A stretch of DNA of 64,000 bases, from assembly GCA_004369045.1 (NCBI GenBank), contig ML213506.1, forward strand, positions 496,001-560,000. Reading direction: 5' to 3'. Shown in pieces: positions 14,970 through 60,420 of the stretch. The notes under the pieces are model-generated. The model had not been told where the DNA came from. It worked only from the letters and a program-made list of their open reading frames with translations, and did not search any database. The stretch's first letter is position 1. Each line of letters begins with the position of its first letter. The translations under genes were made by a program, and so were the position numbers. This DNA comes from Heliocybe sulcata (lineage: Eukaryota > Basidiomycota > Agaricomycetes > Gloeophyllales > Gloeophyllaceae).

Positions 14970-16637
14970 ATGGATTATAGCGGGGTTTACATCAACGGTC
15001 AAGGTATGGTCGCGTATGAGACCTCAAGCGTGCGAGACTCGCTCCCGCCGGTCTTCAGCGACTTGAGCAACGACGCCACTGCCTCATCCATTCTCCCCAT
15101 CCCATCCTTCACTCCATCTGTACCATTTTGGAAGGCTCCTGCTGCCCAAGCAGACCTCCCATCGACATCCTCTTTTCCTTCCACACTATATGGTCCGGCC
15201 ACGGCGCCACACGCTTCTAAGAGCATCTCCAAAGCCGACACCCCGACCGCCGTGGCTGAAGCATTGCTTCTCTTACACTCTCGGTGTACCATTCCGATTA
15301 CTCATTCATCAACATCAACTGCTTCCTCACCCCTGCCAACGTCACTCCCCAACTCCCACACGAGTGGCGCTGCCACAAACGAGCTCGACGCCGAAGTCGA
15401 AGTAACGCCCGGTGTCCGCGCGGATGGCAAGTGGACTAGTAAACATCCAGAGGTTGCGCGTTGGGTTAGGAAGGCCGGACGCCACGGTATAGTTCCTAAC
15501 CTGCTCGAGATCGTGTCCCCTCCTAGGGACTTCAGGGTGTGGGCCCTCGCGGCGCTGGAAGTGGAGCAGCAGCCTAGACACCCTGCTCACTGGGTGCTCT
15601 GGCACAACGATATGAGAGACGTTACAATGGCTGTCATTCTGGAAGAGCTCTGTCGTACGTGGTTTCCGTGCTAACTATATGTCGCCGCTCAGCTGATGCA
15701 TCCTCTTCCAGCCAAAGGCGCCGGATCTCCAGCCTCGACCACGAACCCTAGGATCCACTCCCACCACGCAAACGTCTGGTGTCTCACTCGCGCCTTCATT
15801 GGCAACTACCTCTGGAGGATCCGCCAGTCTATCAGACAGACGCAGGCGGTTCCGAAGGAATGGTGGTACGATGCTGCTGCGGAGGCATTCGACGAGTCCA
15901 ACTTGAAGAAGCGGAAGCGCGACGATGAGAAAGAGGAGGCGGCGAGGAAGAGGGCGAAGATCGAGGCGGACAAGAAGGCTGCGGAGGCGGCGCGCCCCAA
16001 GATCACCCTGAGCCGGTTGAGGCCTAGGACCACTACCGCAAACAACTCTGGGCTGATGCCTGCTAGCGACCGCGTCACTCGCGCTGGTGCCCGCGCTGGT
16101 GCCGTCGCCGTCGTCGTCGTTAGGCCTTCTGAGGAAGCAGATACGATCGCGGCGTCGCGCTCTGAAACTGTTGTTAGCACCGACGTGGGCGGGAGCACCG
16201 TTGTGGAGGTGATGACTCCCGGAAAGGAGGAGACTGATGAGGAGGAGGTAGAGGTTATTAAGACTCCGGATGCTGATGAGGAGGGGGCGTGTGCTTGGCT
16301 TGGGGAGCATACGCTCGAGAAGCCTGTCGCGCAGGAGGCCGTGGTTGAGGAGAAGAAGAAGACGTCCAGGGCCAGAGGCAAGCGTGTTTGCGCTCCTAGG
16401 TGCTCTAACCTCAGGAAGGAAGAAGCCATCGTCGCGCCTGTTGCCTCACTGCAGCCGAATGCCGACAGGGTTCAGACGGCCCCCTCACCTTCTCCGGCCC
16501 CGCAGGCCACCAGCAAGAAATCTGTGGAGCGGACACGGAGGAAGAGCCAGAAGGCTCTCGAGGCCGCCGACGCTGCTGCTGGGGCTCCGCGGCGGAGTGC
16601 CAGGGCCAAGCGCGCCGCTGTCTCTGCCTCCAAGTGA
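14970..16637 (+). CDS. Family gene A: unrecognised basic nuclear-type protein (A-E family)
   Basis: Two exons (14970-15654, 15712-16637; 57-nt phase-1 intron) give 536 aa. The family core follows a variable Ser/Thr/Pro N-terminus: VTPGVRADGKWTSKHPEVAR, then LLEIVSPPRDFRVWALAALE and HWVLWHN. After the intron comes VPKEWW, equivalent to VPDEW in the paralogues, then a long charged region (LKKRKRDDEKEEAARKRAKI), the ARPKITLSRLRPR motif, acidic tracts, and the shared C-terminal motif RRKSQKALEAADAAAGAPRR with a basic end. There is no signal peptide or membrane helix, and the KRKR-rich tail implies nuclear location (inference). It is the most diverged of the five. I do not recognise a named domain, and the function is unknown. 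Confidence 0.82.
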
Positions 16638-17676
16638 TGGGCGTCGTTCACATCTCCCACCTCCTATCATCAGCATCACCCTCAACGCGGATTCATCCCT
16701 TTATCCTTATCCCTGTCCACATCCTATCTTCTCTATTTCTCTCATCTGTCTCACTAGCCCTCTCGCATCCCATCCCCCATTTCTCTCCGGGCCCACTGTA
16801 TCATTATCCATTGTCCGTTCGCGACTCTCACCACGGGACTGTTCCTCTAACCTGTTTGCTGTACTTCATCCTCAGGATACCTCGTGATGTTCGATACCCA
16901 TCTGTATCCTGTATCTTATCCCTATCTGTACATACATTATCTCGGTCTGGGCTTCGTATACGTAGCATTAGTAGGTTGGATTTGTAGAGTAGATTTTTTT
17001 CTCGCCGTTTGTACTCCCTGGTTTCTGATAGCGTAGCGCCAATCCACTGTGTCTCGCAAAACTCGTGTTTATGCTGCGTGGTCGAGAAAGATAGGAAGAA
17101 TTGGAGTCGGACATCATTCCGCCGGAAACGCGTCGCGGCTGACGCGGGTAACATATCACGTGATTTGCACGAGATCGCGTATCGCTGGCACCCCATGACT
17201 CGTTCGCTCTTCTTGCCTGCAACGTCCTCCTTCCTCTCGTCCCGACCTGCCTCCTTGTGCCACACGGATGCTACACAGACTCGGACGTAGCTCCTGACAC
17301 TGCCAGAAGAGTCTTGAAGACTGTTTGCTGTCCTGGTTCATGGGGCGAGCGTCTGAGTACTATTTTCCGCGGCTGCGACGCAAGTTGAGAAAAGGAAGAA
17401 AGCACAGGTATCCATCAATCCCTGAGGTTGGGATGGATGTCAAAGAAAGCGCAACTTCCAAGGCGGAAACAAGTATAGGTCTCTGTGGGCGATGTATTGG
17501 CGGACGGAACCGAAGGTCTCGATCTACAGGAGCCCTCGTTGCTGGAGCATCGGTCTGACAGGTGCGAGCGTTTACTTGTCAGACCAGCAGGATGGTTATA
17601 GGCCGTCTAGGCAGCTATCCAACCTCTGCCCGTTCCCGAAGGTGGATTTTCTGCATCACACTCGTCTCCCTGCACG

Positions 17677-19045
17677 CATATACCCTTCTCAGGCACCAAA
17701 AAGCTTGTTCAGTCTCTCTGCGCTAGGGTCGGATGGTCCAGATATACCGTTACAGCTGCTCGACTGAGACTGCACATCTTCTGGCTACAATTCGTCGTCA
17801 GTGGCCGCAAGTACCGTTGCCTGCCCACCGAGAGCTCCCGCCGTCCTCGTTCCAGGCTAGTGTCTTCACGATTGGAACCTGTACTGTGTCGGATGAGACA
17901 AGCTATATGCTCCTACCGACCAAAGCTGCTTCGCATACATGCGGCGCTCTGGAAGCGTCATCGAGCTTCCAGCCAACGACTATGCAGTGTTCATGCCATG
18001 GAAGGTCGATGTTGCGTATATGGACTGCGCGGTCGAGGATGCCAATCATGGGTCTTCGACGAGATCCACGCATATACTCTGCTGCTCTCCCTAAAGTCCA
18101 TGGCCGCTACACCATCAGTCTTCCCATTCCTGGATGCGTCTACCAGGACAGCCGGTCCGCTGCGAGCGCACGTCTCCTGTCGACACTCCGTCGTTATCGG
18201 CCGCTCGCAACGAGCCTGTCCACTCAACGCTTCCGTCGTTCTCGTCCGGGGCTGGTGTCCTCACAATAGGAACATTTACTGAGTCGGATGTGACAAGCTA
18301 TATGCTCCCATCGAAATTGCTTCGCATACATGCGGCGCTGTAGAATCGTTATCAAACCCTCAGCAAGCGACTACGGGCCGCTTATGCCCTGGAAGGTCGA
18401 TATTACGTATGGACTGCGCGGTCGAGGATGCAAATCATGAGTTTTCGACCGGATACGACCTACCAAATCCTTACTCTCATGCGGGCTCGCATTGGCAGTA
18501 ACTAGAACTGAGCAGGAAAGGCCGTCCACCTCCACCGGGAATGGTGATATACCTCGATGGGGTTCATTCCCTCTGCAAAAAGAAGACGGCTACACATATA
18601 CCCTGCGCTCCCTCCATTGCATGGGCAGTAGACCACTGTAGCCGGGAGTGCGCAACCTTGTTCCCTTTATCTCGGTATGGGGGCATCCATTCGCGGAACT
18701 TCCTTTGTCTAGCGATGACCCTATCCGAAGGTGGATATTTCAAGGTGGGATCATCTTACCCGGTGCGCGTACGCCATGCTGCTCTTCTCCTGTCCAAGCC
18801 AGGACGCATCTCTGCTCTCCCATCGAACCTGTCAACTATAATCCAGTGACTGCATGCTTTGGGTTCGTCTGGCAGGACGGATAGTCAATTGTGGATACGC
18901 ATCTTCTTCCGATGCCGCGTCGTCGGCAACTCTCTGCTCCTCGCCATCCACCCATGGTTCTGTGTTGGCATCGTTTCAGGCTGGTATTTGGACGATGCGA
19001 CCTCTCAGTGCGATGCACACTAGAGAATGCGAATCATGCGTCTCT
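17677..19045 (+). repeat. Three diverged tandem copies of a decayed coding unit
   Basis: Copies open with CACGCATATACCC-like sequence at about 17677, 18066 and 18593, giving spacings of about 390 and 525 bp. Copies 1 and 2 share GACAAGCTATATGCTCC, then GCTTCGCATACATGCGGCGC, then ATGGACTGCGCGGTCGAGGA; in different frames these read like FAYMRR..., MPWKVD... and MDCAVEDANH. Copy 3 retains the CATCGTTTCAGGCTGGT part and a GAGAATGCGAATCATG counterpart. Stops and frame changes interrupt every copy, so this is a degraded tandem duplication of an unknown gene or exon. I cannot name the source family. Confidence 0.55.
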
Positions 19046-23477: not shown

Positions 23478-23499
23478 GCGGTGACTGGCCAGTCACCGC
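23478..23499. promoter_or_regulatory. 22-bp perfect palindrome upstream of the 532-aa gene
   Basis: The half-site GCGGTGACTGG is followed directly by its exact reverse complement, with no spacer, 156 bp before the start codon at 23655. A symmetric site of this length suits binding by a homodimeric regulator or a short cruciform. A chance perfect 22-mer palindrome is unlikely. The function is inferred from position only. Confidence 0.4.
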
Positions 23500-32316: not shown

Positions 32317-34235
32317 ATGGATCCTGGAACTACTGAAGGCTACCGCATGATGGAGAGCGGGGCGGATGCTTGGGCTGTGGAGGGAGATGCGCGGCGTGGA
32401 TTGCCTGAGTCGAGGGAGATAGGCGCCGAGTACGAAGCTATGGCAACGTCCACTGCACCAGTGAATCCAAGTGGTTCCAAGACAGCAGAGGGAAAGGCAG
32501 CTAGGCACACTGCATTTGACCCTCCGAACGAGGTTTCTCCCGGCGTCCTCTCTGACGGGCGATGGACCGGTGAACACCCTCTGGTCCGTGGTTATATCAA
32601 CGAAGTCACGAGTCAACACGGCTCCTCCTTGAATCCAGACCTGCTGGTGGCTTCCACACTCCCCTTCGACCTCAGAATTTACGCGCTCGTCGCTCTCAGT
32701 GTTCAAGACATGGCGGAGAGTCCAGTGTTCTGGCTGTTATATAATGCGAACCAGAAGGACAGAACGAGGGCTGTTATACAGGATCAGATTCAAAGTGTGT
32801 TCTTGGTTCTCCATTTGCATCCTGATATCGTTGAGTAACGCGAAATCGTCTGGTAGAACGTAGGATCTCGGCCCCGTTCTTTGAGGACGGATGGGACACC
32901 AGAGTAGTCGACCTTCACAAGAACTTTGGACATCTAGTCCCAGACGACCGCTGGCTGCTCGAGCAGGCGAGGCAGAAGGCCAAGGAGACACCACAGGCAG
33001 CCAATACCAAACGCAAACTTCAAGAAATTGAAGAGTCTCGCGGCGAGGCCGGCGCGGGTACTGATGGAGACGCCCCTGCAAGCGGCACAAAGAAGAGGAG
33101 GCGCCGCGCCCCAAAGATCACCATGCCTAAAAAGCGTAAGACTGTTACGAAGACCGAACCACCTTCAGTGGCTCCGGCCCCGAACGACCGCAATACCGAG
33201 GACGATGCGCCGGCAGATGATAACGAGGCGGCTCATGCTCCCATGGTGAAGTCAACCAAGGCTAGCACAAGGACGACTCGAGAGCCCACAAAGCCCACCC
33301 GCGTCAGTGCACGCGTGCAGGCGAAGCAGGCTTTGGTCGCGGTCACCCAGGATGGGGATAAGCCTGCAGGCCCATCTACTGCCCTCGCTGACATGGAAGC
33401 TTTAGCGTTGTTGGCAGGCTTTGCAGACGCAGCCGTCGTCTTTCCAAAGGTAGTGAGTGACTCCGAGTCCGTGGAGCGTACGAAAGCGCTGCCCCAGGAC
33501 AGGGAGCCGCAAACTGGTCGCTCGGCAAAGGCTCGGGTCACGCAGCCGCGTGAACGCAAGGCGAAGTCCGCCGTAAAGACGGACGCAGAGGAGGTTGAGG
33601 GGCAGACGAAGGAGAGTCCCGAGGTGAAGGGCCCGGGGCAAGATATACGTCCACCCGTGTCCGTCGACGAGGAGCAGATGGTCGCTGCGAATGCCCTATT
33701 TGAACTCACCAGCAAGCCCTCACAATATGCCGCACCCGACTCCATGATCGGCCTGCATACACAGAGAAGTGTGGCAAAGGATGTCGCCGTCTTGCCTCCG
33801 TTAACCGATGACTCCGAGGCCGATGGACCTGTCGAGGCGCAGCCCAAGGACGGGGAAGACCAGGCCAAGCGCTCATCAGTGCCCCGGGTTAGGCTGCTGG
33901 TTTCAAGCACGGAAGCATCTGCTCCGAAGACAGATGCAAAGAAGGCCAAGCGACAGGTCAAGCCAGCCCTACCGAAGACGCGCGCCAGGAAGGGTCGAAA
34001 AAGTGACGAAAACCGTGAGGCTCTCATCCTGTCATCAGGGGCAACGAAGAAAGGACTTGTCCTCGAGCCCTCCGATAATGACGGCCCCGTGCCCGTACCG
34101 CAGTCGACCGTTGAGGAGGAGGAAGAGAAGGAGCCATCCTCCGAGTTGCAGACAGTGCCTGCCAAACCCCAGCATGCCGCGCAAGCGCTCAAGAGGCAAA
34201 GCAAGAAGAAGGCGGCGACTGAGAAGTCGAAGTAA
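32317..34235 (+). CDS. Family gene B: unrecognised basic nuclear-type protein (A-E family)
   Basis: Exons 32317-32794 and 32857-34235 (62-nt phase-1 intron) give 618 aa. The N-terminus is acidic with an AWAVEGD motif shared with C and D (YWAVEEE). The core reads EVSPGVLSDGRWTGEHPLVR, LPFDLRIYALVALSV and SPVFWLLYNANQKD. After the intron come APFFEDGWDTRV, GHLVPDDRWLLEQARQKAKE and KKRRRRAPKITMPKKRK. The tail repeats motifs seen in C and D: KPTRVSARVQAKQA, KPALPKTRARKGRKSDEN and NDGPVPVPQ. It ends LKRQSKKKAATEKSK. The protein is disordered and Lys/Arg/Glu-rich outside the core. Function unknown; nuclear location is inferred from basic clusters. Its 3' flank shares a conserved segment with gene D. 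Confidence 0.87.
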
Positions 34236-35699: not shown

Positions 35700-38155
35700 G
35701 TACCAGGCAAAGCATCCAGTAAATTAAGAGAAAATGACGCTTTGTACTTAGAAAAGTAATGCAAGGCGTAAAAGGCGCTCGAAGAGGATATGTGGCATAC
35801 GCCCTGAATTCCAGCTCCGCCTCAAGTCGGCCACCCCCACCACTTCCCTTTCATCCTTTCCACATCACCTCACAACGCATTGCTCTGCATACTATTCTGT
35901 CCTACATTGCTACAAGTGCACCCTACCACCATCTCTGCTATATTTTTACCACTAGAGGCCACAGTTGCGACGACCAGCCACACCTGCCACGGCTCTTCAA
36001 CCACACACCGCTCGTCGTTTCCTCTCTTAACCGAGTGTCATTGAAAACGAGATGAGCAAGCGAATCGATGAATTTGACTCTCCTATGGAGAACGGGGTGG
36101 GATATTGGGCCGTAGAGGAGGAGTCAGGCAGTCGGTTCCCAGTGTCCGACGCGAGGGACAAAGCGTATGTTCCCGTCGTAAAACCCACCGCCCCAGCCTC
36201 GGCAACCAGCAACGCTATGCCTAGCGGCTCTACCAGACCAACCGGGACCACGACCGGCGTCGTTATCCCAGACTACCCGAAGGAGGTCTCTCCTGGCGTC
36301 CTCGCCGATGGTAGCTGGACGTCCGCACACCCCCTCGTCCAACGGTATATCGGAAGAGTGCGGGACAGATACGGCGCGAGCATCGAAGCCGATCTCCTTG
36401 ACACCTTTCCTCCTCCATCCGATCTTAGAGTCTATGCCCTGGTCGCGCTCCAGGTCGGCAACTTTCCGGAGACCCCGGCATTTTGGATCTTCTGGCACGC
36501 GAAGCAGTGGAAGAAGAGCATTGAGATCATACGCTCTCAGAGCAAGAGTAAGCTCCATTTCCACAGCTTGGTATGTCGTCGTCCTCGATTAACCGTGGCA
36601 TTGTCTGGTAGAGAGGACGATATGGGCCTGGTTCATGGAAGACGGTTGGGACACGAGGGTGCTGGGCATGCACATAAACTGCGGTCACTTGGTCCCTGAC
36701 GATGAGTGGGTTCTCAAAAGTGAGAGGCAAAAGAAGGAGAACGCTCGCAAAGCCGCAGCTGCAAAGCGGAAGCTTGAAGAGGCGGGCGATGCCAGCTCAG
36801 CCCCAGCGAAGAAGAGGCCTCGCAAGGCACCGCGGCTGACGCACATCAAGACGCACAAGCCTGCGAAGAAGGCTGAGCAGCCTGAGCCTGCACCTGCCGC
36901 GGAAGGCGATCACGCCGAAGCTACTAGTCATCCTAACAACAACGGAGTAATTGCCACCCTCGGCGATGAAGCTCCTGCGCCTCCCAAGCTTGCATTGACC
37001 AAGGCTTCCAGGAAGATCGTCAAGGAGAGCGCGAAGCCCACGCGCGTGAGTGCTCGCATCCAGGAGAAGAAGGCTGCTGCCGTCGTTGAAGAGGAGAACG
37101 ATAACCGAGGCGAGCCTGAGCTGCCGCCGGTCGCTGCCGCTGGTACTGGAACCGCAGGAACCGTGGTAAACCCGAGTATCAAGAGGTCATCTAGAGTCAC
37201 TGCTTCCAATACCAAGGTGGCCGTCACTGCGGGTGGCAGCGACGCGTCTGGTACCAATCCGTTGCCTCGGATGACCAAGGAGCCCGAAACCAGGGAGCTT
37301 GCGAATGCGCAGCCCGCGGGCAGGAAGGCACCTGCCGACCGCTCGTCAAAGCCTAGCGTCGTACTGCTGCGGAAGAGCAAGACCGAATCCACGGTGAAGG
37401 CACATGCAGAGAAGGCCCAAGTGCAGCACAAGAAGACGGCAGCCACTGTGGACGACCGCGATGCGACCACTGCTGCTGTTGTAACTGGGGCATCCAAACG
37501 CTTTGGAAAGACTGCAAACGCGAAGCGCGAGGATGGCAAAGCGCCGACGGATCCCTCGTCGAAGGCGAAAGTTACGCTCCTGCTCGGAACCAAGGACGCC
37601 TCCGCCCCGCAGGCAGATGCAGAGCAGGCAAAGCCTGCCCTGCCGAGCACACGGGCCAGGAAGGCTCGGAAGAGTGATGAAAATGCTCAGGTTACCATCT
37701 CCGCTGGGAGCACCAAGAAGGAAGCCGTCCTTCTCCCAGTCGAGAACGGCGGACCCGTACCCATGACGGCTGAGGAGGACGGGAAACCATCCGAGGCGCA
37801 GGCTGTCCCTTCCCGGCCACAGCGTACGCGCCGCCAGAGCCAGAAAGCCCTCGAGAGCGCCGCACAGGCGCCCAAGAGGAGGCAGGGCGGGAAGAGGCTG
37901 GCTGCAGTCGCTGCCTCTGACGAATTGAAGTAAGGTGGATTGGCAGCGTCTCACCTCGTAACGTTTTTCATCCATCCGCCACCCCAATCATTAATGTCGT
38001 TTGTTCTTCTAGGCTAGTCTTCTCTCCATTATACTCCTTTCTTCAAGATGCTGCCACGGTTGTTGTTGCACGTTACCCGTGTGGTGTCCTTGTTTTCGAC
38101 CTTCTGTTCGCGAGTCGGTCTATACGTCTCCTGCTGGGCATAATAATGTACCTTA
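35700..38155 (+). repeat. Left arm of a 2.4-kb inverted duplication (gene C arm)
   Basis: This arm carries gene C with its leader and 3' flank. It matches 43020-40583 in inverted orientation. Identity is near-complete from about 35745 to 37450. It drops clearly upstream (CCAGGCAAAGCATCCAGTAA here against CCAGGGAAAGGCACCCAGTA in the other arm) and in the last third of the coding region and 3' flank, where homology still runs to GGGCATAATAATGTACCTT. The central spacer (38156-40582) holds LSM2 and WDR83. Confidence 0.9.
36052..37933 (+). CDS. Family gene C: unrecognised basic nuclear-type protein (A-E family)
   Basis: Exons 36052-36547 and 36612-37933 (64-nt phase-1 intron) give 605 aa. The N-terminus is MSKRIDEFDSPMENGVGYWA. 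The core reads EVSPGVLADGSWTSAHPLVQ, then RYGASIEADLL, PPSDLRVYALVALQV and PAFWIFWHAKQ. After the intron: WFMEDGWDTRVLGMHI, GHLVPDDEWVLKSERQKKEN, KKRPRKAPRLTHIK. The tail is Ala/Lys/Glu-rich with KPTRVSARIQEKKA and KPALPSTRARKARKSDEN, ending RRQSQKALESAAQAPKRR and DELK. It is the twin of gene D; the two proteins are virtually identical up to about residue 430, then differ at many sites. No known domain was recognised. Confidence 0.9.
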
Positions 38156-38312
38156 GTGAAGGTTAACTAACGGCTGTACGCACTAATAAATTGAACACGG
38201 ATGCTTCATATATATCTTCGTCTTGCAAAGTGTCGGTAGATAGGAGCGTGACTGCCGCAGCCAATTACTCGCGTGCGAGGTTAGGTCCTATTGTATCCCT
38301 CCTTCCCTCACC

Positions 38313-38823
38313 ATGGTGCGCCTCATTCCGCGACTAATGCATGCGCACAAATTCAATAATACCAAAACATAGCTCATATTCTCGGTGTTCAAGACCCTCA
38401 CGGACCAGCGCGTCACTGTCGAGCTCAAGAACGACCTCTCCATCACCGGCACCCTCAAGTCCGTCGACCAGTGCGTGATGTCTCCTTGCAAGCCTCACCT
38501 AGCTGAAACCAGAGGCATACATCGAACAGGTTTTTGAACATCCGCCTGGACGGCATAAAAGTGCTCGACGAGCAGCGCTATCCTCACATGGTGTGTTCCA
38601 TTCATGAGGCTCCGATGAACCCGTGCTCATGGAATATCTTCCAGATGGCCGTGAGGAACTGTTTCATCCGTGGCTCGGTCGTTCGATACGTGCAGATACC
38701 AAAGGAACACGTCGACGTACAGCTCTTGGAGGACGCGACGCGACGAGGTACGTTCCTCGTTCCTTCTTCCATCACATAAACTTATTCTCGCCGCAGAGGC
38801 GGCCAACACGGTCAAGCGGTGAC
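38313..38823 (+). CDS. LSM2: U6 snRNA-associated Sm-like protein LSm2
   Basis: Five exons (38313-38315, 38373-38470, 38530-38590, 38645-38747, 38798-38823) give 96 aa. Exon 1 is only the ATG codon. The product is a classic LSm2: IFSVFKTLTDQRVTVELKND, LSITGTLKSVDQFLNIRLDG (Sm1), YPHMMAVRNCFIRGSVVRYV (Sm2, with the IRG signature) and a short charged tail. LSm2 is part of the LSm2-8 ring that binds the U6 snRNA 3' end in the nucleus and the LSm1-7 ring that promotes decapping in the cytoplasm. The gene lies in the spacer between the inverted arms with WDR83, tail to tail (198 bp apart). Confidence 0.95.
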
Positions 38824-39020
38824 GGACGGAGGGCGGACTCTGGCACGTGTACGTTACACGATGTATATTGGCAGCTTTGTGATGCTATTGCATTCTATAC
38901 TCTGGCATATAGGCTTCATAGGAACAGCGGCCCTGCTGCATAGGACAGATCTTAGCAGGATCTCCTCACCCGACAACTTTTCCTCCACTACCTGGACGGT
39001 GCACAGGACCAGACCCGCCT

Positions 39021-40278
39021 CTACGACTTGCCCGGGTGCCGCCACACCTTCACCGTTCCATCCGCGCTCGCGGTGACCATCTCCCCGGGATCCGTCGGGT
39101 GATGCTCCGTCCACCCAATCACCTTCTCGTGCACCCTCGGCGGAGGATTCGGCCGCAGCACCTGGCCCTACACAGCCCACCCACCCGTTCGTCAACCACA
39201 AACCACCCGGAATGAGCTGCTACACCACTCACATCCAACAAATCCCAAGCCCACACCCTCCCGCCCTCGTCACCCGCCACGACCGTTGCCTCTTCACTTC
39301 CAAACACGGCTCGACAGCGATAGTTCTTCACTTCGTACCCGTCGGCTTTAAACGATTGGAGCATCTTGCCTGTGCCCGCGTCCATCAGTCGGATGGTCGA
39401 GTCGAGCGTCGTGGCGAGGTAGGTGGTGTAATCTGCCGTGGGAACAACGGCGGTTACGGGTTCTACGAAAGAGAGCAAAGTGTAAGAGGCGAGAAAGAGT
39501 ACGAGGGAAGGAAGAGAAACGCACGACCGATGTAATCCGCCCTGAGCTGTCCCTTCCTCAAGTCGTACGTCCTCACATGTCCATCCACCGATCCGGTGAT
39601 GATACTTGTCGGACCGACGTGGATGGTTTGCACCGCGTCCTTCGCTTCCTCAAGGATCTGGATGGGGACGTGAGACTGCGAGCTTGATGAGCATGAGCAG
39701 AGAGGGTGATAGTTTACAAGCCGGAAATGCGTACCGTAAATCCCACAAGCGGACTGTTGCATCGTAAGAACCTGAGGTACCGTAGTTCTGTGAGATGCTG
39801 CTGAAGCAAGAAAGGTGTGACATACCGCTGGCAAGGACCGACGCGTCCGCATTGAAATCGACCGCGTTTACGCGTCCCATATGCCCCGAGAACCTCTTAA
39901 TAGTAACGCCCGTCGTTACATCCCATAGGAAGACAGAGCGATCGCCTCCTGAGCTTGCGAACTTGCTGTTATCATGCGCCCTACCCATCCGAGACTAATC
40001 AGCCCTTCTCTCCCGACTTAAAACCTCACACCGCCCGTCTTGACCCACCGTACTACTTACACCGAAATGGACAACACCTCGTACCCATGGCTTGCATACA
40101 CCTTGATCTCCGTCCCAATGGTGGGGTTCCACAAGCGCACCGTGCGGTCCTGCCCGCCGGTCAGGATGTATTTTGCGGTTCCTTTGGCATATCGCGCAAC
40201 GTGCACTGGACCGCGGTGATTGGAAAGCGTCGTGTGCAGGCTGCGTGCGAGCGGTTGCGGGCCTCGAGAGGGTGCCAT
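39021..40278 (-). CDS. WDR83: WD40 scaffold protein WDR83 (MORG1) homologue
   Basis: A multi-exon gene starting MAPSRGPQPLARSLHTTL at 40278, or 6 nt earlier at MF-MAPS. Blades are clear in order: GPVHVARYAKGTAKYILTGG, QDRTVRLWNPTIGTEIKVYA; DNSKFASSGGDRSVFLWD, VTTGVTIKRFSGHMGRVNAV; SYDATVRLWDLR; TSIITGSVDGHVRTYDLRKG; TTLDSTIRLMDAGTGKMLQS; ATVVAGDEGGRVWAWDLLD; and the last blade HPTDPGEMVTASADGTVKVW. The order, about 310 aa size and GGDRSVFLWDV match human WDR83 (GGDKAVVLWDV), an ERK-scaffold and spliceosome C-complex component. Gene D lies 517 bp upstream on the same strand, so the WDR83 promoter sits inside the 3' flank of D. Confidence 0.88.
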
Positions 40279-40463
40279 GAACAAAATTTAAGGGCAAGAG
40301 TGCCGAGGGATTGGGGGGATTTAGCCACGCACGATCGGTGTCACTGTGTCACGATAGTCAGTCACGGCCACGTGGAGCGCGACTCATTAGTCGCGTTGGG
40401 GCGACCGTCGACACGTCAGTCAGCTTGCCACAGCCTCATATCTCGAATGGTTAAACCACATGA

Positions 40464-40540
40464 TAAGTGAGACAATGTATTGAAGCGTACAATGCACTGA
40501 AAAATGACCAATAATGCACAATAGAAAGCTGAAACAAGGG
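40464..40540 (-). promoter_or_regulatory. Conserved 3' flank element, copy in gene D
   Basis: Read on the minus strand, this is the counterpart of 34369-34432 behind gene B: CCTTGTTTCAGCTTTCTATT, GGTCATTTTTCAGTGCATTG and TTGTCTCACTTA, 255-331 nt after the gene D stop. Gene C, though the twin of D in its coding region, does not show it, so this end of D is closer to B than to C. Confidence 0.45.
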
Positions 40541-40582
40541 TATCGACTCGGATGAAGTGACAACAACAGGGGCTCAAGGAAA

Positions 40583-43020
40583 AGGTACACGCTTATGCCC
40601 AACAGGAGACGCACAGAGGCGCTCTCGAACAGAAGGTTGAAAATAAGTGTCCCAACTCGACAACAATCATGAAACAGCAGCAGCTTGAAGGAGGGAGTAT
40701 GGCGGAGAGAAGACTACACTAGAACAACAAACGACATTGATAGGGGTGGCGGATGGATAGAAAACGTTACAAGGTGAGACAATGTCAATCCACCTCACTT
40801 TAATTCGTCAGCGACTGCAGCGACTCTCTTCCTGCTCTGCCTCCTCTTGGGCACCTGTGCGGCGCTCTCGAGGGCTTTCTGGCTCTGGCGGCGCGTGCGC
40901 TGTGGCCGAGAAGGGACAGGCTGCGTCTCGGATGGTTTCTCTTCCTCCTCAGCCGTCACGGGTACGGGGCCGCCGTTCTCGACTGGGAGAAGGACGGCTT
41001 CCTTCCTGGTGCTCCCAGCGGAGATGGTAACCTGAGCATTTTCATCACTCTTCCGAACCTTCCTGGCCCGTGTCCTCGGCAGGGCAGGCTTTGCCTGCTC
41101 TGCATCTGCCTGCGGGGCGGAGGCGTCCTTGGTTCCGAGCAGGAGCGTAACTTTCGCCTTCGACGAGGGATCCGTCGGCACTTTGCCATCCTCGCGCTTC
41201 GCGTTTGCAGGCTTTCCAAAGCCTTTGGACGCCCCAGGTACAACAGCAGCAGTGGTCGCATCGCGGCCGTCCACAGTGGCTGCCGTCTTCTTGTGCTGCA
41301 CTTGGGCCTTCTCTGCATGTGCCTTCACCGTGGATTCGGTCTTGCTCTTCCGCAGCAGTACGACGCTAGGCTTTGACGAGCGGTCGGCAGGTGCCTTCCT
41401 GCCCGCGGGCTGCGCATTCGCAAGCTCCCTGGTTTCGGGCTCCTTGGTCATCCGAGGCAACGGATTGGTACCAGACGCGTCGCTGCCACCCGCAGTGACG
41501 GCCACCTTGGTATTGGAAGCAGTGACTCTAGATGACCTCTTGATACTCGGGTTTACCACGGTTCCTGCGGTTCCAGTACCAGCGGCAGCGACCGGCGGCA
41601 GCTCAGGCTCGCCTCGGTTATCGTTCTCCTCTTCAACGACGGCAGCAGCCTTCTTCTCCTGGATGCGAGCACTCACGCGCGTGGGCTTCGCGCTCTCCTT
41701 GACGATCTTCCTGGAAGCCTTGGTCAATGCAAGCTTGGGAGGCGCAGGAGCTTCATCGCCGAGGGTGGCAATTACTCCGTTGTTGTTAGGATGACTAGTA
41801 GCTTCGGCGTGATCGCCTTCCGCGGCAGGTGCAGGCTCAGGCTGCTCAGCCTTCTTCGCAGGCTTGTGCGTCTTGATGTGCGTCAGCCGCGGTGCCTTGC
41901 GAGGCCTCTTCTTCGCTGGGGCTGAGCTGGCATCGCCCGCCTCTTCAAGCTTCCGCTTTGCAGCTGCGGCTTTGCGAGCGTTCTCCTTCTTTTGCCTCTC
42001 ACTTTTGAGAACCCACTCATCGTCAGGGACCAAGTGACCGCAGTTTATGTGCATGCCCAGCACCCTCGTGTCCCAACCGTCTTCCATGAACCAGGCCCAT
42101 ATCGTCCTCTCTACCAGACAATGCCACGGTTAATCGAGGACGACGACATACCAAGCTGTGGAAATGGAGCTTACTCTTGGCTCTGAGAGCGTATGATCTC
42201 AATGCTCTTCTTCCACTGCTTCGCGTGCCAGAAGATCCAAAATGCCGGGGTCTCCGGAAAGTTGCCGACCTGGAGCGCGACCAGGGCATAGACTCTAAGA
42301 TCGGATGGAGGAGGAAAGGTGTCAAGGAGATCGGCTTCGATGCTCGCGCCGTATCTGTCCCGCACTCTTCCGATATACCGTTGGACGAGGGGGTGTGCGG
42401 ACGTCCAGCTACCATCGGCGAGGACGCCAGGAGAGACCTCCTTCGGGTAGTCTGGGATAACGACGCCGGTCGTGGTCCCGGTTGGTCTGGTAGAGCCGCT
42501 AGGCATAGCGTTGCTGGTTGCCGAGGCTGGGGCGGTGGGTTTTACGACGGGAACATACGCTTTGTCCCTCGCGTCGGACACTGGGAACCGACTGCCTGAC
42601 TCCTCCTCTACGGCCCAATATCCCACCCCGTTCTCCATAGGATAGTCAAATTCATCGATTCGCTGGCTCATCTCGTTTTCAATAACACTTGGTTAAGAGA
42701 GGAAACGACGAGCGGTGTGTGGTGCCGTGGCAGGTGTGGCTGGTTGTCGCAACTGTGGCCTCTAGTGGTAAAAATATAGCAGAGATGGTGGTAGGGTGCA
42801 CTTGTAGCAATGTAAGGCAGAATAGTATGCAGAGCAATGCGTTGTGAGGTGATGTGGAAAGGATGAAAGGGAAGTGGTGGGGGTGGCCGACTTGAGGCGG
42901 AGCTGGAATTCAGGGCGTATGCCACAAATCCTCTTCGAGCGCTGCTTACGCCTTGCATTACTTTTCTAAGTACACAGTGGCCTTTTGTCTCCCAATATAC
43001 TGGGTGCCTTTCCCTGGCCA
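40583..43020 (-). repeat. Right arm of the inverted duplication (gene D arm)
   Basis: Inverted match of 35700-38155. It includes the leader of D, with one 7-nt gap relative to the C leader (CCACGGCACCACACACC here). The most conserved part is about 42975 down to 41290. The outer flank and the 3' third are clearly more diverged than the centre. Confidence 0.9.
40795..42671 (-). CDS. Family gene D: inverted twin of gene C (A-E family)
   Basis: Exons 42671-42175 and 42106-40795 give 602 aa. It starts MSQRIDEFDYPMENGVGYWA and carries the same core, VPDDEW, basic tail and KALE/APKR-type motif as C, ending KRVAAVADELK. One extra C just before the intron (AGAGCCAAGAG against AGAGCAAGAG in C) changes the donor phase from 1 to 2. 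With the acceptor used in C (intron ending at 42111) the frame would be lost. A second AG four bases on (intron ending at 42107) restores the frame and is the model given here. If the upstream AG dominates, D makes a truncated protein of roughly 200 aa. The second exon is otherwise fully open. Confidence 0.8.
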
Positions 43021-44205: not shown

Positions 44206-45665
44206 TCAGCACTGCGTCCTAGGACTGAACGGGAACTTCATGCGCATCGAGTCACTGTAGATTCCGTATCCAGGCTCCATGTAGTCCGAGTATATATGCG
44301 CAAACCAGCCGATACCGCCACCCTCTACAGCTTTGAGGTCTTCGCAGTGCTGATCCAGCAGAACGTAATAGTCCTGGTCGTATATTTTGTCAGGTGTATG
44401 TAAAGACGACGGTCAAGAAAGGGCGCTCACATGTTCATTCTTAACATCAGAGACAGCGTAAGGACTATTTGGTTGCACACCCGGCGATGTTACAGATGGC
44501 CAGCCATTCTACACAAGGCAAGCAAAATCAGAGTGTGGCCTAACGTGATGGCTGGAGACTGACCTCGTCAAAATACATCTTCTTTCCATTGCCGTGTTGA
44601 ATGAACCAATCAAGGTCGTTCTGTACCAGCGGCCAGGCGTTCTTGGCTACTGCCATCTTAGACTCGTAGAGCATAAGGGATGTCAAGGCGAACACTGACC
44701 GGTACTAGCGTTCTGAGAGAAGAACGGCAACATATGGATATTGATGAAATCGACTGCATCCAGTACGTCCTGCGCGCCACCTCGTTCTTGATAGCCGTAT
44801 GCAAGCTCGCTCACGGTCACCGGGATATTCAGGCTACTGAGATTCTGCTTCGCTAGGATAACTTGTTCTGCGAGCTGGTCATGGGGGAGGACGTCATCAT
44901 AGAGGGGTTCCGAGCCAAACTGTACGCCACGGGTTACAAACTTGGCGAGGGGGTTGGAATGCAAGGATGCAAAGAGCGTGTCGCGCCGAGAGATCCAGAT
45001 GTCCGAGCCGTCGAAGCCGAACTGGTGATAGTCAGGGTTGGTAAGTCCGAGCAGACCGAGAAGACTGATACTTACCCAGACGAGCGCATGAACACCGAGG
45101 GAGTTCTCCCAAGCCGCCGCGACAATATCATCGCTGGACGACGCACATTTTGTTAGTTGGCGCAAACCCATGTATAGGCAGAACGGCTCACTAGAAGCCA
45201 TCTCGATCGCAGGCACCATATAAACGGACATATCGAGAGTTGAAGTGGTACCGTATATCTCGGAACTCTTCGATGAGGCGTTCCCGGCTTTGACCTGAGG
45301 AAGGTGGAGTCAGTTACAGGGTATATGGCGGGCACTGACAACCTACAAGCTGTTACTTCGTAACTGAAGCCGACGAAAGCATACTCCGTCGCAGGGTCAC
45401 ACCACCAATTAGTATTGTCAAGTGGCGGCACAAAGAGTTTGGGGAAGCCAATCGCAGGATAACAGAACGGTGCCGGAAAACCTCCAGAGTCCTGACGTTC
45501 TTCAAGATCCCTCTTGCTAGGGATAGGTATCGAAGGAGACGAGATTTCGGAACTATCGTCCCTGAGCGATAGAGCACGGTCGGTAACATTCAGAGGAGCA
45601 CCATAAACCAGGTCGAGTACACAGAGAACAAGAGAGGTACCAAGGGCGTCGAGCGGGAACCTCAT
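44206..45665 (-). CDS. Secreted GH17 beta-1,3-glucanase-type glycosidase, copy 1
   Basis: Seven exons. The first four are 45665-45347, 45294-45192, 45133-45076 and 45021-44700, identical in length to those of copy 2 at 56641. The start MRFPLDALGTSLVLCVLDLV is a signal peptide, chosen over a Met three codons upstream because it matches copy 2. A KRDLEERQ stretch could be a Kex2-type processing site. The GH17 barrel shows IEEFRDIRYHFNSRYVRLYG, WENSLGVHALVWFGFDGSD, RGVQFGSEPLYDD (Glu of GSE as likely proton donor), VTVSELAYGYQ, FINIHMLPFFS, and KKMYFDENGWPS (Glu as likely nucleophile, next to an intron). It ends WFAHIYSDYMEPGYGIYSDS. Such enzymes act on cell-wall beta-1,3-glucan outside the cell. 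Both catalytic Glu are present. Confidence 0.92.
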
Positions 45666-54642: not shown

Positions 54643-55607
54643 ATGTCTTCGAACGTTCTTGCTGTAACAACAGAAATTGATGAAGCCGACAGACGGATAG
54701 TCGTTCTTATATCCGGCTCAGGTAAGCTCGCTTATTGTTGTCCTTCGATTGCCCGTAGTCAAAATTTCAGGACCATCTCCGGTTACCCTTGCGCAGGGAC
54801 TAACTTGCAAGCCCTGATCGACGCACGGAATACCCCTCGTTTACCACACACCCGAATAACGCTTGTCCTCTCAAATCGAAAGGCGGCCTATGGTTTGACG
54901 AGAGCTGCAGAGGCCGACCCACCTATTCCCACCGCGTACCTCGCCCTCCAACCTTTCCTGAAAGCGAACCCAGGCAAGACGCGAGATGATTACGATGCCG
55001 AGGTCGCTCGCATAGTTATACGAGAGAAGCCCGATCTGGTCGTCCTCGCGGGATGGATGCACGTCCTTGGTGAAGGTTTCCTCGACATCGTGAGCGCACA
55101 GCGCGCACTCGACGGGGAATCAAAGCCTGAAAAGCCGATCCCTGTGATCAACCTCCACCCTGCCCTACCTGGCGCTTTTGAGGGTACTCACGCAATTGAG
55201 CGGACGTTTGAGGCATTCCAGAAAGGCGAGATAGATAAGGCTGGCGTGATGGTGCACCGGGTGATCAAGGAGGTGGACCGCGGTGAGCCGATCCTTGTGC
55301 GGGAGGTCCAGATTCGCAAGGGTGAGCCCATCGAGGCGTTTGAGGACAGATTGCATAGGACGGAGTGGGAAATTATTGTCGATGCGACGAAGAAGGTCTT
55401 GGACGAGATCAAGCCTGTCAAGGTGGGTGATTCTACGCTACACCTCGCCATCGTACTGATATACCGGAAGCCATCGTAATACATTTCGTCTAGGTGTATC
55501 GTCCAAATATCGATGTATTTGATTATAGAGAAGTGCGATTTATCCCTAGAGAGTTCAATGCCGCCTCTCGTGGTGCCGGCACCCCTCGACTCCCATCGTC
55601 TTCATAG
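54643..55607 (+). CDS. ADE8: Phosphoribosylglycinamide formyltransferase (GAR transformylase)
   Basis: Exon 1 (54643-54721) and exon 2 (from 54797) join across GSG|TNLQ, giving the substrate-loop signature VVLISGSGTNLQALID. Further signatures are PDLVVLAGWMHVLGEGFL, PVINLHPALPGAFEGTHAIE (catalytic His of the IHPALP motif) and AGVMVHRVIKEVDRGEPILV. This monofunctional enzyme transfers a formyl group from 10-formyl-THF to GAR in purine synthesis; animals use a trifunctional fusion instead. Two 3' ends are possible. Reading through gives a stop at 55477-55479 (253 aa). Splicing an intron 55423-55493 (GTGGGT donor, CTAG acceptor) adds VYRPNIDVFDYREVRFIPRE and more, ending at 55607 (272 aa). The core ends before either, so both should be active. 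Confidence 0.95.
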
Positions 55608-56640
55608 AAGAAGCAATCACTTTCGCCCTGAGCTCTGTTACGATATCACATATCCGCAGGAGGAGCCCGTTGATCGCTGCCTTGCTAGGCTGGACTCCCA
55701 TAACCTAGACAAGATGCAGCTCGTTGGCAGCGTCTGATCCAACTGATACGTTTCGTCTAATCACCTCGTATTGCTGTGAAAGGAAGTCAGGGCCACATAT
55801 TATATGCATCTGCTCCTGCGGCGGAAGCGCAGGACCAGGTTCGTCTCTGCTTAAATATCCGTCAGCAGGACATTGACGCACATTGTGTCTGACAGCGGCG
55901 GTAGTCCAACTCAGAGCAAGGTAAGCGGCAGGCCCGCGATCTGCTCCGTTTGGCCGTTGGACATCAGCAAACTCTATTGGATTGTTATCGATATTCATCG
56001 TGATGTTATGGCATTAGGAAGCCCAAACTCCCGTCAAAGCACACAGTCGCCACTTTCAGGCCAAGAGAATCTCGGCTCCGGACATTAGAAGGTTACCGAT
56101 ATATATGTGCCGTACTGACGACCCTTACCTTGTCTTGCTTTCTTTACAGGCCGGCGTCTTCAGAGTCTATGCCGCCACCAGACATAAGCGACATCGATGT
56201 GCTGCTATTCTTCACGACCCTGACACTGTCGCTATCCTGGCCTAGTCTGTATGGCATCTGCGCGAGCTTCATCGCTCCTCAGTCCTTGCAGGGAAGGCCG
56301 CTGTACCGATGAAGCTACGATACGCTCTCATGCCTTCGCCACGAACTGAATGGTGTCAGTTCATGGGAGTGGAAGCAAGATAAGTCGATTCTTGATGTGA
56401 TATACCGTCCAAGAGGTGCTGTAAAACCCCTTCGCCACCACGGCCAGCTATCTTTGGGCGCGTTCTTGCTCGGGGTACGGTATTTATGGCTCATGCCTTC
56501 ATTGAGTCACATGTTCATTATTCCATGGCCCTTTCACTTCACTATAACCTGCTTCTATATGATTGTCTGGAGTACTTATAGCAGACGCCGAGGTCTGCTG
56601 TTAGCCAGGTCTCCCAGCCTCCCTCCTGGCGATTCACAAG
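55608..56640. other. Gap before GH17-2
   Basis: No supportable gene. The last 70 bp (GCCGAGGTCTGCTGTT, then CT-rich sequence) parallel the upstream region of GH17-1, with ACTTATAGCAG near 56574-56584 as a possible TATA-type element. Remaining frames are short and lack motifs. Confidence 0.45.
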
Positions 56641-58095
56641 ATGCGGCTCTCACTCCGGGTCCCCGGTCTGTCTCTCGTCGTCCTTGCACTTGACTTGGTC
56701 TCTGCATTCCCTCTCGACTTCCCCAATCATGCTCTATCTCTCAGGGACAGCGTCTCCGACCTGTCATCTGACTTAGGTTTCATGTCCAGCAATCGGGGTC
56801 TCGAAGAAAGACAGGACTCTGGAGGACAGCCGGCACCGAACTGTTACCCTGCGCTTGGATTCCCCATGCCTTCCGCGCCGCCGGAGGACAATACCCAGTG
56901 GTGGTGTGATCCCACGACTGAGTACGCTTTCATGGGGTTCAGTTATGAAATCACCGATTGTAAGTGACCGACTCAATATGGTACGACGTTCGCTGTACCC
57001 AGCTCTTCCCAGGTCAAAGCCTACAGCAGCTTATCGAAGAGTTCAGAGATATACGGTACCACTTTAACTCTCGATACATTCGTCTGTATGGTTTCTGCGA
57101 TAACGAGGGCTACTAGTAAGTGTACTGCACCCGATGTAGATTGGACTGACAGGGTACAATCCACAGTGATGACGTTGTATCTGCGGCTTGGGAGAACTCT
57201 CTGGGTGTTCACGCCCTCATCTGGGTAAGCACTCAGTTGCCCTTCTCTCCATTCGCTAGGCTTATTGGCCTCGATCATGATTTAGTTCGGATTTGACGGC
57301 TCAGACATCTGGATGACGCGGCGCGATACACTCTTTGCCGCCCTTCACTCTAATCCTCTTGCTAAGTTCGTGACCCGTGGGGTGCAATTCGGCTCGGAGC
57401 CCCTCTACGACAACGTCCTTCCTCCCGACCAACTCACGGAGCAGGTCATCTTGGCAAAGCAGAACCTCAGCAGTCTGAACATTCCGGTCACGGTATCTGA
57501 GCTGGCTTATGGTTACCAAGAACGCGGGGGTGGCCAGGATGTACTGGACGCAATTGACTACATCAACATCCACATGCTGCCCTTCTTCTCGGCGAATGCT
57601 ACTACAGGTCAGCCTCCGTGCTGATGTGTTCTGATACGTTCTGATTCGATTCGTTTTAGCGAATAATGCGTGGCCGCTGGTGCTCACTGACCTTGACTGG
57701 TTCGTTGAACACGGCGACGGCAAGAAGATGTACTTTGACGAGGTGGGTATCTTGTAGCTGCTTGATCTTCTTTTCTTGAGCTCGTATTTGATTTAGAACG
57801 GCTGGCTGTCTTCCGCAACCCTTCCGAGCCAACAGCCCACTAGTCCTTACGCCGTCGCCAACGTCCAGAACGAATACGTACGTTTTCTCTCTATCCTGCG
57901 GTGTATCCATCTTACAGCTATCACCAGGATTACTACGTCCTCCTTGATGAGCACTGCGAATATTTGAAAGCCGTAGAGGGAGGTGGAATCGGCTGGTTTG
58001 CCCACATCTACTCGGACTATATGGAGCCTGGATACGGGATCTACAACAGCTCTATGCAGCAGAAGTTCCCTTTCCATCCTAGGACGGAATGCTAA
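56641..58095 (+). CDS. Secreted GH17 beta-1,3-glucanase-type glycosidase, copy 2
   Basis: Seven exons (56641-56959, 57013-57115, 57167-57224, 57286-57607, 57660-57742, 57797-57877, 57928-58095) give 377 aa. The signal peptide is MRLSLRVPGLSLVVLALDLV. A possible dibasic-free processing region (NRGLEERQ) precedes the catalytic part. GH17 landmarks are EEFRDIRYHFNSRYIRLYGF, RGVQFGSEPLYDN (proton donor Glu), NIPVTVSELAYGYQERGGGQ, YINIHMLPFFSANATT and KKMYFDENGW (nucleophile Glu), ending WFAHIYSDYMEPGYGIYNSS. Exon lengths match copy 1 for exons 1-4, so the two arose by duplication. The protein is predicted to act on beta-1,3-glucan in the wall. Family gene E follows 631 bp downstream on the same strand. 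Confidence 0.93.
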
Positions 58096-58726
58096 CGCCC
58101 TAGGTATCCGGTTGGCTCACATTTGCTGAGGAACATATGCTTCCGCTGTGTTGTACAATATCACTATCTGGGATACCTGTGTTGTGGAAGGCGTTGCTTA
58201 CTGCGAAGACGACTCTGCACTATCGAATGCTCCCATGTATAGCATCTTCATTGAGCGAGAGAATAAATGCCCTTACCACTTGTTCTGTAGATTTAGCGTT
58301 GCCGTACGGCTCTACATCTCCTTCCATCTGACATTTCCTTCTAGTGGCGTCCCAGGTTTCCAGTGACACGCGTCCAGACAAGTTTAGATTCACATCGATG
58401 ACTGACCCGAGCGCGAGCCACAAGCCAGGCGATTGTGGCTTGATGTGATTACTACTTTGGGGGCCTATTCCCACGGGATGCGCCTCTTCTAGATGCGCAT
58501 TTGCCACTCTGCTCCCTTCACCGCTACCTCAACCACCCCCACCCACCACTCTGCTTATCACTTTCCACTCTTCTATCGGTGTATACACTCTCGTGTTGCA
58601 CACGCCCAGGTCGACTTTCCCAGACGTCAACACTGCATTGCTCGGCACAGTGCCGCGCACGAGCCACACCGACTGCCACAAGTGATAAACGCACTCTACC
58701 CAGCGAAGACGAAAGCACCTCTCCCA
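58096..58726. other. Gap between GH17-2 and gene E, with a pyrimidine-rich leader
   Basis: From about 58500 to 58720 the sequence is C/T/A-rich (CCACCCCCACCCACCAC), like the leader of gene C (CCACCCCCACCACTTCCC), and is probably the 5' UTR of gene E. A short open stretch near 58150-58280 (YNITIWDTCVVEGVAYCEDD) has no splice support. Confidence 0.45.
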
Positions 58727-60420
58727 ATGGACTCATCTACCAAAGAGAGCTCGACGGCTAAGGCCATCATCGAGCCGTGGGGCCCCGACGTTCCGGAGGA
58801 CGAGTTTCCCGAGTCCTATGAAAGGACGTGGTTCCCGGAGGAGCCACATCCACAGTCTGACAGTCTGGTCGCGTCTGACAGGGCGCAATGTTCTTACAAG
58901 CCAAGACGCTTTGGGTACAGGACGTCCTATAATAATCAAAGAGTCAGAACGGCTCAATCCGACAATCCTGTGCCGAGCCACACCGAACAAGAACCCGTTA
59001 TGGAGGAGAAGGACGTCGGCGTCCTTCTAGATGGACGACTAACGCTGAATTATCCTCCTGTTCTCAAATATATTGAGGAAGTCCAGTTGAAATATGGCTT
59101 TGATTTGCCCGCCGATTTGTTGGAGACTTGTCTCCCGCCCGAGGACCCGAGGGTCTACGCTCTGATAGCGGTGTGGATGAAGAGTGAACCCGTGTGGCCG
59201 ATCTGGTGGGTATTTTTTAATGCTGCCAGGAAGGACGAGACGAGGAGAATTATAGAGGCTCAAGTCCGCGGTACGTCCTTGTCCCTGGGTTAATCTGCGC
59301 TACTAACCTCAGGATTCTTGTAGAGCGGACTATTAGCTCTGGGACTTTACCTGATGACTGGGATTCCACGCTGGTTGAGTACCATATGATAGGGCGACAC
59401 AGGGTTCCTGATGAATGGCTTGTGGATGAAGCAAAGCGTGCCAACGTCCGGGAGCGTAATAGGCAGTCCAAGCGCAAGCTGAAGGATGTTGAGAGCCGTG
59501 AGGGAGACGCCGCTCCTACGGATGCAGCTGTGAAGGCCATATCCAAGCCTCAAGCAAAGAAGAGGAAGACTGTTGGGAGAGGATCTATCAAGAAGCAACG
59601 CGAACCTCTGAAGAAGAGCCCACTTGCGGAGGAAATTGTATCAGAGGACGTGGTAGAGGATCTTCTGGCGTGCGACGACAAGATTGTCAGCACTGTGGGT
59701 GAAGAGCATGCTGCTAGTAGTGCTCACGCGCAATCCGCTGGGGCTACGGCGGCGACAGCAGAGTCTGGTCGGCTTGATACGTGCAGCCGAGCGGAAGATG
59801 CTCCATCCTTCAAGTCCGAATTCCAGCAAGCTGATGCTGCGGAAAACAAGCCTGGTGATGGCATCGTACTCGCAGAGCCGCCCCAGGCTCTCCAGGTTGA
59901 CAGGCCGTCGGTTGCGGCCACCGCAGAGTCCAGTACCGCCTTCAGCGCCTCGGGGACCAAAACCACTGCTGTGGCTTCCAAGTCGCGCCATGTGTTGAGG
60001 AAGACACGGCTGAGGCCCGTCGAGGAGGTGGGTGAAGTTGACAAAGGGGATGCGGTGAAAGCGTGGTTATCCGGTTCCAAGGATGCGAAGGAGCCCGAGA
60101 CCGAGCGTGTAGCAAAGGCGGTGACAGGAAAGGGGGAGGATGAGGAGAAGTCTCAAGATGTCTCCATTATGCAAGACGTGGACAGGAACCTGCAACGTTC
60201 AAAGCTCACTGGTCAAACTCCGGCCAACACCCGGACAGATGGGCTCGTCGAGGAGGGCAGTGAATCCAAGGCACCTGCTGTCGCTCCTCCTGCTGACGAA
60301 ACCAAACCAGTCAGGAAGCGTAGAAGTAGTGTAAAGGCGCTTGAAGCAGCTGAAGGAGCTGTGGAGGCTCCGAAGAGGAAGTCCGTCAGAAAGAAGGCGG
60401 CGACTGCTTCATCCGAATGA
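58727..60420 (+). CDS. Family gene E: unrecognised basic nuclear-type protein (A-E family)
   Basis: Exons 58727-59270 and 59324-60420 (53-nt phase-1 intron with CTAAC branch-like site) give 546 aa. The core reads EKDVGVLLDGRLTLNYPPVL, KYGFDLPADLLETCLPPEDP, RVYALIAVWMKSEPVWPIWW and VFFNAARKDETRRII. After the intron come SGTLPDDWDSTLVEYHMIGR and HRVPDEWLVDEAKRANVRER, then KRKLKD and a long Lys/Glu/Ala tail with KPQAKKRKTVGRGSIKKQRE, ending RRSSVKALEAAEGAVEAPKR and KKAATASSE. The DGRWT motif is changed to DGRLT and HP to YP. It keeps the KALE/APKR end. Function unknown; the relation to GH17-2 next door may be just shared duplication history. Confidence 0.86.

Follow-up and report, generated by a model that had tools for sequence, protein, structure and literature searches.

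Five homologous genes at a single locus

The window, the whole 64,000-nucleotide stretch of Heliocybe sulcata DNA analysed here (C4:496001-560000), contains five homologous genes, A-E, within 46 kb (Table 1; positions count from the first letter of the window). Protein searches across the whole genome (31.6 Mb), with single sequences and with a consensus, recovered five copies, every one of them inside the window, and the local amplification proposed in the initial annotation is thereby supported. Queried against the whole genome, the core of C retrieved B (E = 2.5e-21), A (8.7e-16) and E (1.9e-14); the cores of E and A led to the same five genes, the weakest pair being A/E at about 4e-7. A possible sixth member (C19:205967-206191; E = 0.08 for the consensus query, 0.5 bits for the family profile) was rejected as a chance match; it sits inside a 1320-aa open reading frame that we take to resemble a UBR-type ubiquitin ligase.

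Table 1. Genes, repeat arms and associated features in the window.
Feature	Position	Strand	Remarks
Gene A	14970..16637	+	exon 1 14970-15654; phase-1 donor 15655; exon 2 from 15712 or 15733 to 16637
Gene B	32317..34235	+	exons 32317-32794, 32857-34235; 618 aa; without KALExA
Left arm (C and flanks)	35703..38154	+	95.3% identical to right arm over 2462 aligned columns
Gene C	36052..37933	+	exons 36052-36547, 36612-37933; 605 aa; inside left arm of inverted repeat
Putative conversion tract	C 36081..37454; D 42642-41268	+ (C)	1374 bp, 0 substitutions, one 1-bp indel
Spacer	38155..40581	.	LSM-domain exon and WD40-repeat gene between arms
LSM-domain exon	38394-38471	+	in spacer
WD40-repeat gene	pieces between 40278 and 39024	-	in spacer
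Right arm (D and flanks)	40582..43017	-	inverted repeat partner
Gene D	40795..42671	-	near-identical inverted copy of C; 1-bp insertion at 42180 beside splice donor
Gene E	58727..60420	+	exons 58727-59270, 59324-60420; 546 aa

The family may have grown at this locus by segmental duplication and inversion. A transposon origin was rejected in view of the single locus, the common intron and the lack of any transposon match to Pfam in the open reading frames scanned. A further pair of genes, upstream of D and E (45669-44205 and 56637-58096), is 69.6% identical at the DNA level. Co-duplication of D and E with this pair is possible; it stays unproven because the C/E and D/E cores, at about 40-43% amino-acid identity, are more diverged than the upstream pair.

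A shared core coded across a phase-1 intron

In B, C and E a phase-1 intron is predicted at the same aligned place (62, 64 and 53 nt, respectively). The donor of A occupies the family position, but its acceptor is ambiguous, the later one giving a product of 529 aa, and the usual splice of D is out of frame; the common intron described earlier stands in full for three genes. Gene E would code for 624 aa if read from the upstream in-frame ATG at 58493.

Alignment of the exon-1 cores of A, B, C and E reveals 19 invariant positions in 94 columns. The core had been put at about 90 residues, which is too short: in B, C, D and E it runs about 55 residues into exon 2 and comprises about 145 residues in total, coded across the one intron. 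Family queries did not find this second half in exon 2 of A, where only VPKEWW is recognisably homologous to the other copies at the start of the exon. The homology of all five genes was confirmed, but several of the motifs said to unite them hold only loosely, or one copy lacks them. The string GVLxDGxWT occurs verbatim in B, C and D, with GVRADGKWT in A and GVLLDGRLT in E; VPDEW is literal in E only, the equivalents being VPDDEW in C and D, VPDDRW in B and VPKEW in A. The APKIT-like motif and KALExA are each present in four of the five genes, the former being absent from E and the latter from B.

Known domains and relatives

Four core sequences compared with Pfam (E<=5) gave best scores of 14.6, 13.7 and 12.3 bits, where the cut-offs are 26.5-27, and none for A; both exons of all five genes (E<=1) reached at most 15.3 bits against a cut-off of 27. 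In PDB, the exon-1 profile matched designed ankyrin repeats best (E = 0.44, taken as chance), and a profile of the spliced core returned 0 matches at E<=10. The statement that the family carries no named domain thus holds against both databases, and neither search yielded a known DNA- or chromatin-binding domain in A-E. A possible bZIP likeness in the basic residues that come after VPxxW was discarded, as they do not lead into a leucine zipper and have no match in Pfam.

Scans of prokaryote and viral contigs gave no confirmed relative. The motif strings had no match in a literature search, and the family was absent among the matches listed for palindromes or conversion in basidiomycetes, lineage-specific mushroom families and fungal interlocus conversion. 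Many fungal genes are without Pfam matches, and it is nearly an even call whether A-E simply belong to an ordinary, widespread family of mushroom-type fungi for which no Pfam model exists, with nothing special to the lineage. We found no counter-evidence to this explanation, and the negative prokaryote and viral scans would be expected either way.

Constraint on the core and divergence of the tails

Between B and C, the 89 codons of the exon-1 core differ 30, 26 and 58 times at first, second and third positions, respectively (dN 0.44; dS 3.1, near-saturated). Because of this third-position excess, we regard the core as shown, at the level of its codons, to evolve as constrained coding sequence. 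In the B-C tail, dN is 0.52 and dS 1.19. The fast divergence ascribed to the tails applies towards A and E, where identity is 22-26%, but not to B versus C (41% in the tail, 48% in the exon-1 core). At third positions B and C are more alike in the late tail (identity 0.42-0.57) than in the core (0.28-0.45), which is suggestive, and only suggestive, of an older B/C conversion.

The differences between the C and D tails appear near neutral, with little recent constraint (dN 0.019 and dS 0.024 by NG86; 0.021 and 0.019 by YN00). They agree with a reading in which birth-and-death evolution has left the disturbed D, and A with its aberrant second exon, as pseudogenes in decay; so does the exon 2 start of A, which is without recognised homology. 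Furthermore, the extra base at 42180 puts the usual splice of D out of frame and would result in a truncated, frame-shifted product of 194 aa. Against such decay, the exon-2 frame is open for 320-466 codons from stop to stop in every copy, and the sole C/D gap in the coding part of the tail is 6 nt long and in frame. A tandem acceptor 4 nt downstream could moreover rescue D with an open frame of 602 aa, although in the gene model only. On this evidence we consider pseudogene decay of D and A rather unlikely.

A substitution-free tract shared by inverted arms

Genes C and D lie in an inverted repeat with 2.4-kb arms, a feature that the initial annotation did not mention. C and D are diverged duplicates that nevertheless share a tract of 1374 bp free of substitutions, which takes in the 64-bp intron. 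Immediately 3' of it, 25 substitutions fall in the next 478 bp (37455-37932; 5%), and in the 3' flank at 38000-38099 the arms are about 30% different.

We infer a recent gene-conversion tract in C/D, unless the assembly is wrong. Ectopic conversion between the inverted arms would homogenise C and D, and D would have gained its 1-bp insertion after homogenisation. Both the identity and the insertion could instead be artefacts of consensus errors in long reads or of collapsed repeats, and the only difference within the tract, a 1-bp indel, is a typical long-read error. However, the diverged edges show that there are two copies, although local over-polishing is still compatible with them. A very recent inverted duplication predicts uniform identity, whereas at the 3' end 700 bp suffice for identity to drop from 100%, first to about 95% and then to about 70%. 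Under uniform divergence, a 1374-bp run has a calculated chance of about 2e-14, and none of 200,000 simulations produced one; this test used 27 substitutions over 1900 positions and is conservative, as the arms differ by 29. Assembly or polishing error, or a very recent inverted duplication, is thus an improbable source of the identity in the middle of the arms. The conversion between copies that had been proposed for the family is supported for this one pair only, C/D.

Inverted pairs of duplicated genes whose likeness is actively maintained are described for C. elegans, C. briggsae and C. remanei (PMC1803023). Like these pairs, C and D are two homologous genes in inverted orientation with near-identical arms; unlike them, C and D have two unrelated genes between their arms, in a spacer of 2.4 kb, and the arms are identical in part only. 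Arm-to-arm conversion likewise keeps inverted copies alike in the palindromes of mammalian sex chromosomes (PMC3723533, PMC8981503), in contrast to which the C/D arms measure 2.4 kb and no linkage to mating genes was found.

Charge, tails and a possible nuclear role

The tail of A-E is long, of low complexity and of mixed to basic charge. Order-promoting residues make up 33-37% of the cores versus 14-17% of the tails, and from conservation and composition only, the core is probably folded and the tail disordered. The description of the products as basic nuclear, possibly chromatin-associated proteins agrees with the whole-protein pI of A (9.0), B (8.3), C (9.8) and D (9.7), but E is acidic (5.6, or 6.7 from the upstream ATG), the N-termini of all five are acidic (pI 4.5-4.7) and the basic clusters mostly match composition. 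The strongest basic 9-mer clearly exceeds composition in B only, where 40 of 2000 shuffles reached it; the corresponding numbers are 1103 for A, 460 for C, 535 for D and 260 for E. A K[KR]x[KR] site occurs at most 65 residues after VPxxW in all five proteins, and composition-preserving shuffles give one in 17-23% of cases per gene. Together, these features are a weak indication of a nuclear, chromatin-associated, basic character.

Mating loci and possible genetic conflict

Paired homeodomain matches at C1:910506 and C1:912075 likely mark the homeodomain mating locus, and STE3 matches are located on C11 and C16. A genome domain search revealed no linkage of the A-E cluster to this pair or to the STE3 genes; on C4 itself, two single homeodomain matches lie outside the window, at 642111 (82 kb past its end) and 900787 (341 kb). 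Neither exon of A-E has a homeodomain or STE3 match in Pfam (E<=1). The earlier hint at mating-type-like selection consequently finds no support from linkage.

Copies amplified locally and converted among themselves, with tails that diverge towards A and E, might also be expected if A-E were under genetic conflict, whether through spore killing, incompatibility (nuclear or somatic) or a mating function, with copy number and conversion serving that conflict. A fungal precedent is given by the wtf meiotic drivers of Schizosaccharomyces pombe, a multicopy killer family for which the papers mention gene conversion (PMC11497594, PMC9562144). The likeness is that of a fungal multicopy family with putative gene conversion; A-E differ in occupying one locus. 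Yet ordinary duplicates are expected to show the same features, the B-C core is under purifying rather than diversifying change and the cluster is apart from the C1 homeodomain pair and the STE3 genes, which makes conflict very unlikely. We give next to no credence to the further idea of a fast-evolving nuclear family in conflict, over nuclear recognition or spore killing, with the core as its new domain and the C/D pair as a cassette for conversion by which the active copy is renewed, hitch-hiking on housekeeping-type LSM-domain and WD40 neighbours that cannot be lost, the indispensability of which is assumed.

Discussion

On the basis of these results, we favour, at somewhat better than even chances, the reading of A-E as a locally duplicated family of protein-coding genes, with D possibly just broken, a constrained core and C and D homogenised by conversion. 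A nuclear adaptor is a tentative proposal, if the most likely function for A-E. The folded core would then engage a protein partner, and the tail, disordered and often of positive charge, may promote import into the nucleus and make weak contacts with nucleic acid or with further proteins.

A-E form a clean five-gene family with no named domain at one locus and represent a tidy but fairly ordinary case of local duplication plus copy-to-copy correction. As the evidence stands, they are one among many uncharacterised fungal families. The putative C/D conversion tract can be dated and sampled again across strains, and the family would matter if its core folded in a new way or took part in the recognition of one nucleus by another.

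A gene family confined to one locus

We searched the whole genome (31.63 Mb, 51 contigs) with the 85-residue core of gene C and obtained five places, all in the window (C4:496001-560000), with E-values of 2.5e-21 for B, 8.7e-16 for A and 1.9e-14 for E. The E and A cores returned the identical set of five, bearing out the five-gene family proposed by the initial annotation. The exon-2 start of C retrieved four places (C, D, B and E) and gave no match to exon 2 of gene A in the genome search. With a 145-residue consensus, ten matches were found, namely exon 1 of A-E, exon 2 of B, C, D and E, and a weak match on contig C19; all these counts derive from single-sequence or consensus queries, which a very diverged sixth member could escape. 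The C19 match was rejected as a sixth copy. When A, B, C and E are aligned over exon 1, 19 of 94 columns are invariant, and a phase-1 intron occupies one aligned place in B, C and E. Genes A-E thus form a genuine, unnamed family confined to one locus, in a window whose gene content is eukaryotic and fungus-like, with short introns. Together with STE3-type receptor genes on other contigs, these traits point to a fungal genome.

The family genes encode protein. Between the exon-1 cores of B and C (89 codons), differences at codon positions 1, 2 and 3 number 30, 26 and 58, with dN 0.44 and a near-saturated dS of 3.1; for pairs other than B-C and C-D, dS of this core was saturated and not computable. 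Over 348 aligned codons of the B and C tails, whose alignment is less certain than that of the core, dN is 0.52 and dS 1.19.

Coordinates of the family genes, the inverted arms and the genes between them
Feature	Position	Strand	Remark
Gene A	14970-16637	+	rebuilt from DNA
Gene B	32317-34235	+	rebuilt from DNA
Gene C	36052-37933	+	rebuilt from DNA
Gene D	42671-40795	minus	rebuilt from DNA
Gene E	58727-60420	+	rebuilt from DNA
Left arm (C and flanks)	35703-38154		inverted repeat with right arm
Right arm (D and flanks)	40582-43017		inverted repeat with left arm
LSM-matching exon piece	38394-38471	+	Pfam 1.2e-6, above cut-off
WD40-repeat gene	between 40278 and 39024	minus	first piece WD40 4.4e-5, 24.3 bits versus cut-off 27

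A substitution-free tract between C and D

The C and D arms are 95.3% identical over 2462 columns. Across 35990-37940, the two copies differ by 29 substitutions and 13 gap positions; none of the substitutions falls within 36081-37454 (1374 bp), 25 lie in the 478 bp that follow (37455-37932), and farther 3', at 38000-38099, the flanks differ by about 30%. Under uniform divergence, such a run has a probability of about 2e-14 and was reached in 0 of 200,000 simulations, which were slightly conservative (27 substitutions over 1900 positions). As identity in the tract extends through the intron and every synonymous position, selection on the protein cannot explain it, and gene conversion between the arms is therefore the natural reading of this one good tract. 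The alternative is that the identity stems from an over-polished assembly. Within the putative conversion tract, D differs from C at a single point, 42180, where it carries an additional base immediately ahead of the splice donor. Splicing to the usual acceptor shortens the D protein to 194 aa; in a modelled alternative, a tandem acceptor lying 4 nt further downstream would leave a frame of 602 aa open.

Neighbouring genes

The arms enclose a 2.4-kb spacer. When 38300-38800 was translated with stops as X, its LSM match weakened to 0.23, as an intron would explain. A duplicated gene pair, which we presume resembles a secreted glycoside hydrolase, lies upstream of D (45669-44205, minus) and of E (56637-58096, plus) in opposite orientation, with 69.6% DNA identity over 1491 columns. 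The scanned pieces gave no Pfam match (44686-45309 at E<=5, four ORFs at E<=0.5), and the pieces tried had no PDB match. Adjoining gene A, an ORF at 13240-13914 (-) contains one PAH motif (PF02671, E=1.3e-9) and has a basic C-terminus. Two degenerate tandem copies at 17819-18410, 391-395 bp apart and 75-79% identical, had no convincing Pfam match and are possibly a decayed or intron-rich gene. At 61404-62949 (+), long ORFs of 341 and 211 aa overlap each other; neither matched Pfam at E<=0.01, and both lie in a stretch of high GC skew (0.168 in 62001-64000).

Mating loci

Homeobox_KN matched at C16:93902 (93902-94009) and C1:910506, and the Homeodomain model gave 11 matches, on contigs C12, C1, C4, C16 and C7. 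One of these, C1:912075, is 1.5 kb from the C1 Homeobox_KN match; such closely spaced matches are typical of homeodomain mating pairs, and C1:910506-912194 is probably one. Single Homeodomain matches on C4 at 642111 and 900787 lie outside the window, 82 kb and 341 kb past its end. STE3 matches occur on C11, where several cluster at 798177-836776, and on C16, where the receptor match (131927-132934) is about 38 kb from the Homeobox_KN match. Judged by contig, with contigs not joined to chromosomes, the five-gene cluster is not at the C1 homeodomain or STE3 loci.

Protein features and function

Several of the motifs initially described as shared are approximate, not literal in all five genes: VPDEW is literal in E only, B lacks KALExA, E lacks the APKIT-like motif, and the DGxWT start is changed in A and E. 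Likewise, the description as basic proteins fits A-D (pI 9.0, 8.3, 9.8 and 9.7) but not E (5.6), and the N-termini are acidic in all five. When each gene's tail was shuffled 2000 times, its strongest 9-residue basic cluster was equalled in 1103 runs for A, 40 for B, 460 for C, 535 for D and 260 for E. All five genes have a K[KR]x[KR] site within the first 65 tail residues; of 5000 shuffled tails for each gene, 844-1144 had one as well. As the five genes are homologues and hence not independent, nuclear import is at most plausible.

Searched against Pfam, four core sequences (E<=5) yielded nothing above cut-off, nor did the two exons of each family gene, A to E (E<=1); the PDB gave no convincing match. 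Pattern searches produced 29 matches in viral contigs and 37 in prokaryote genomes, none of them confirmed. We infer a folded core followed by a disordered, often basic tail, and tentatively favour a nuclear adaptor as the most likely function. Locally confined, unnamed gene families are common in fungi; an unexpected result from a proteome search or structure would raise the significance of this one.
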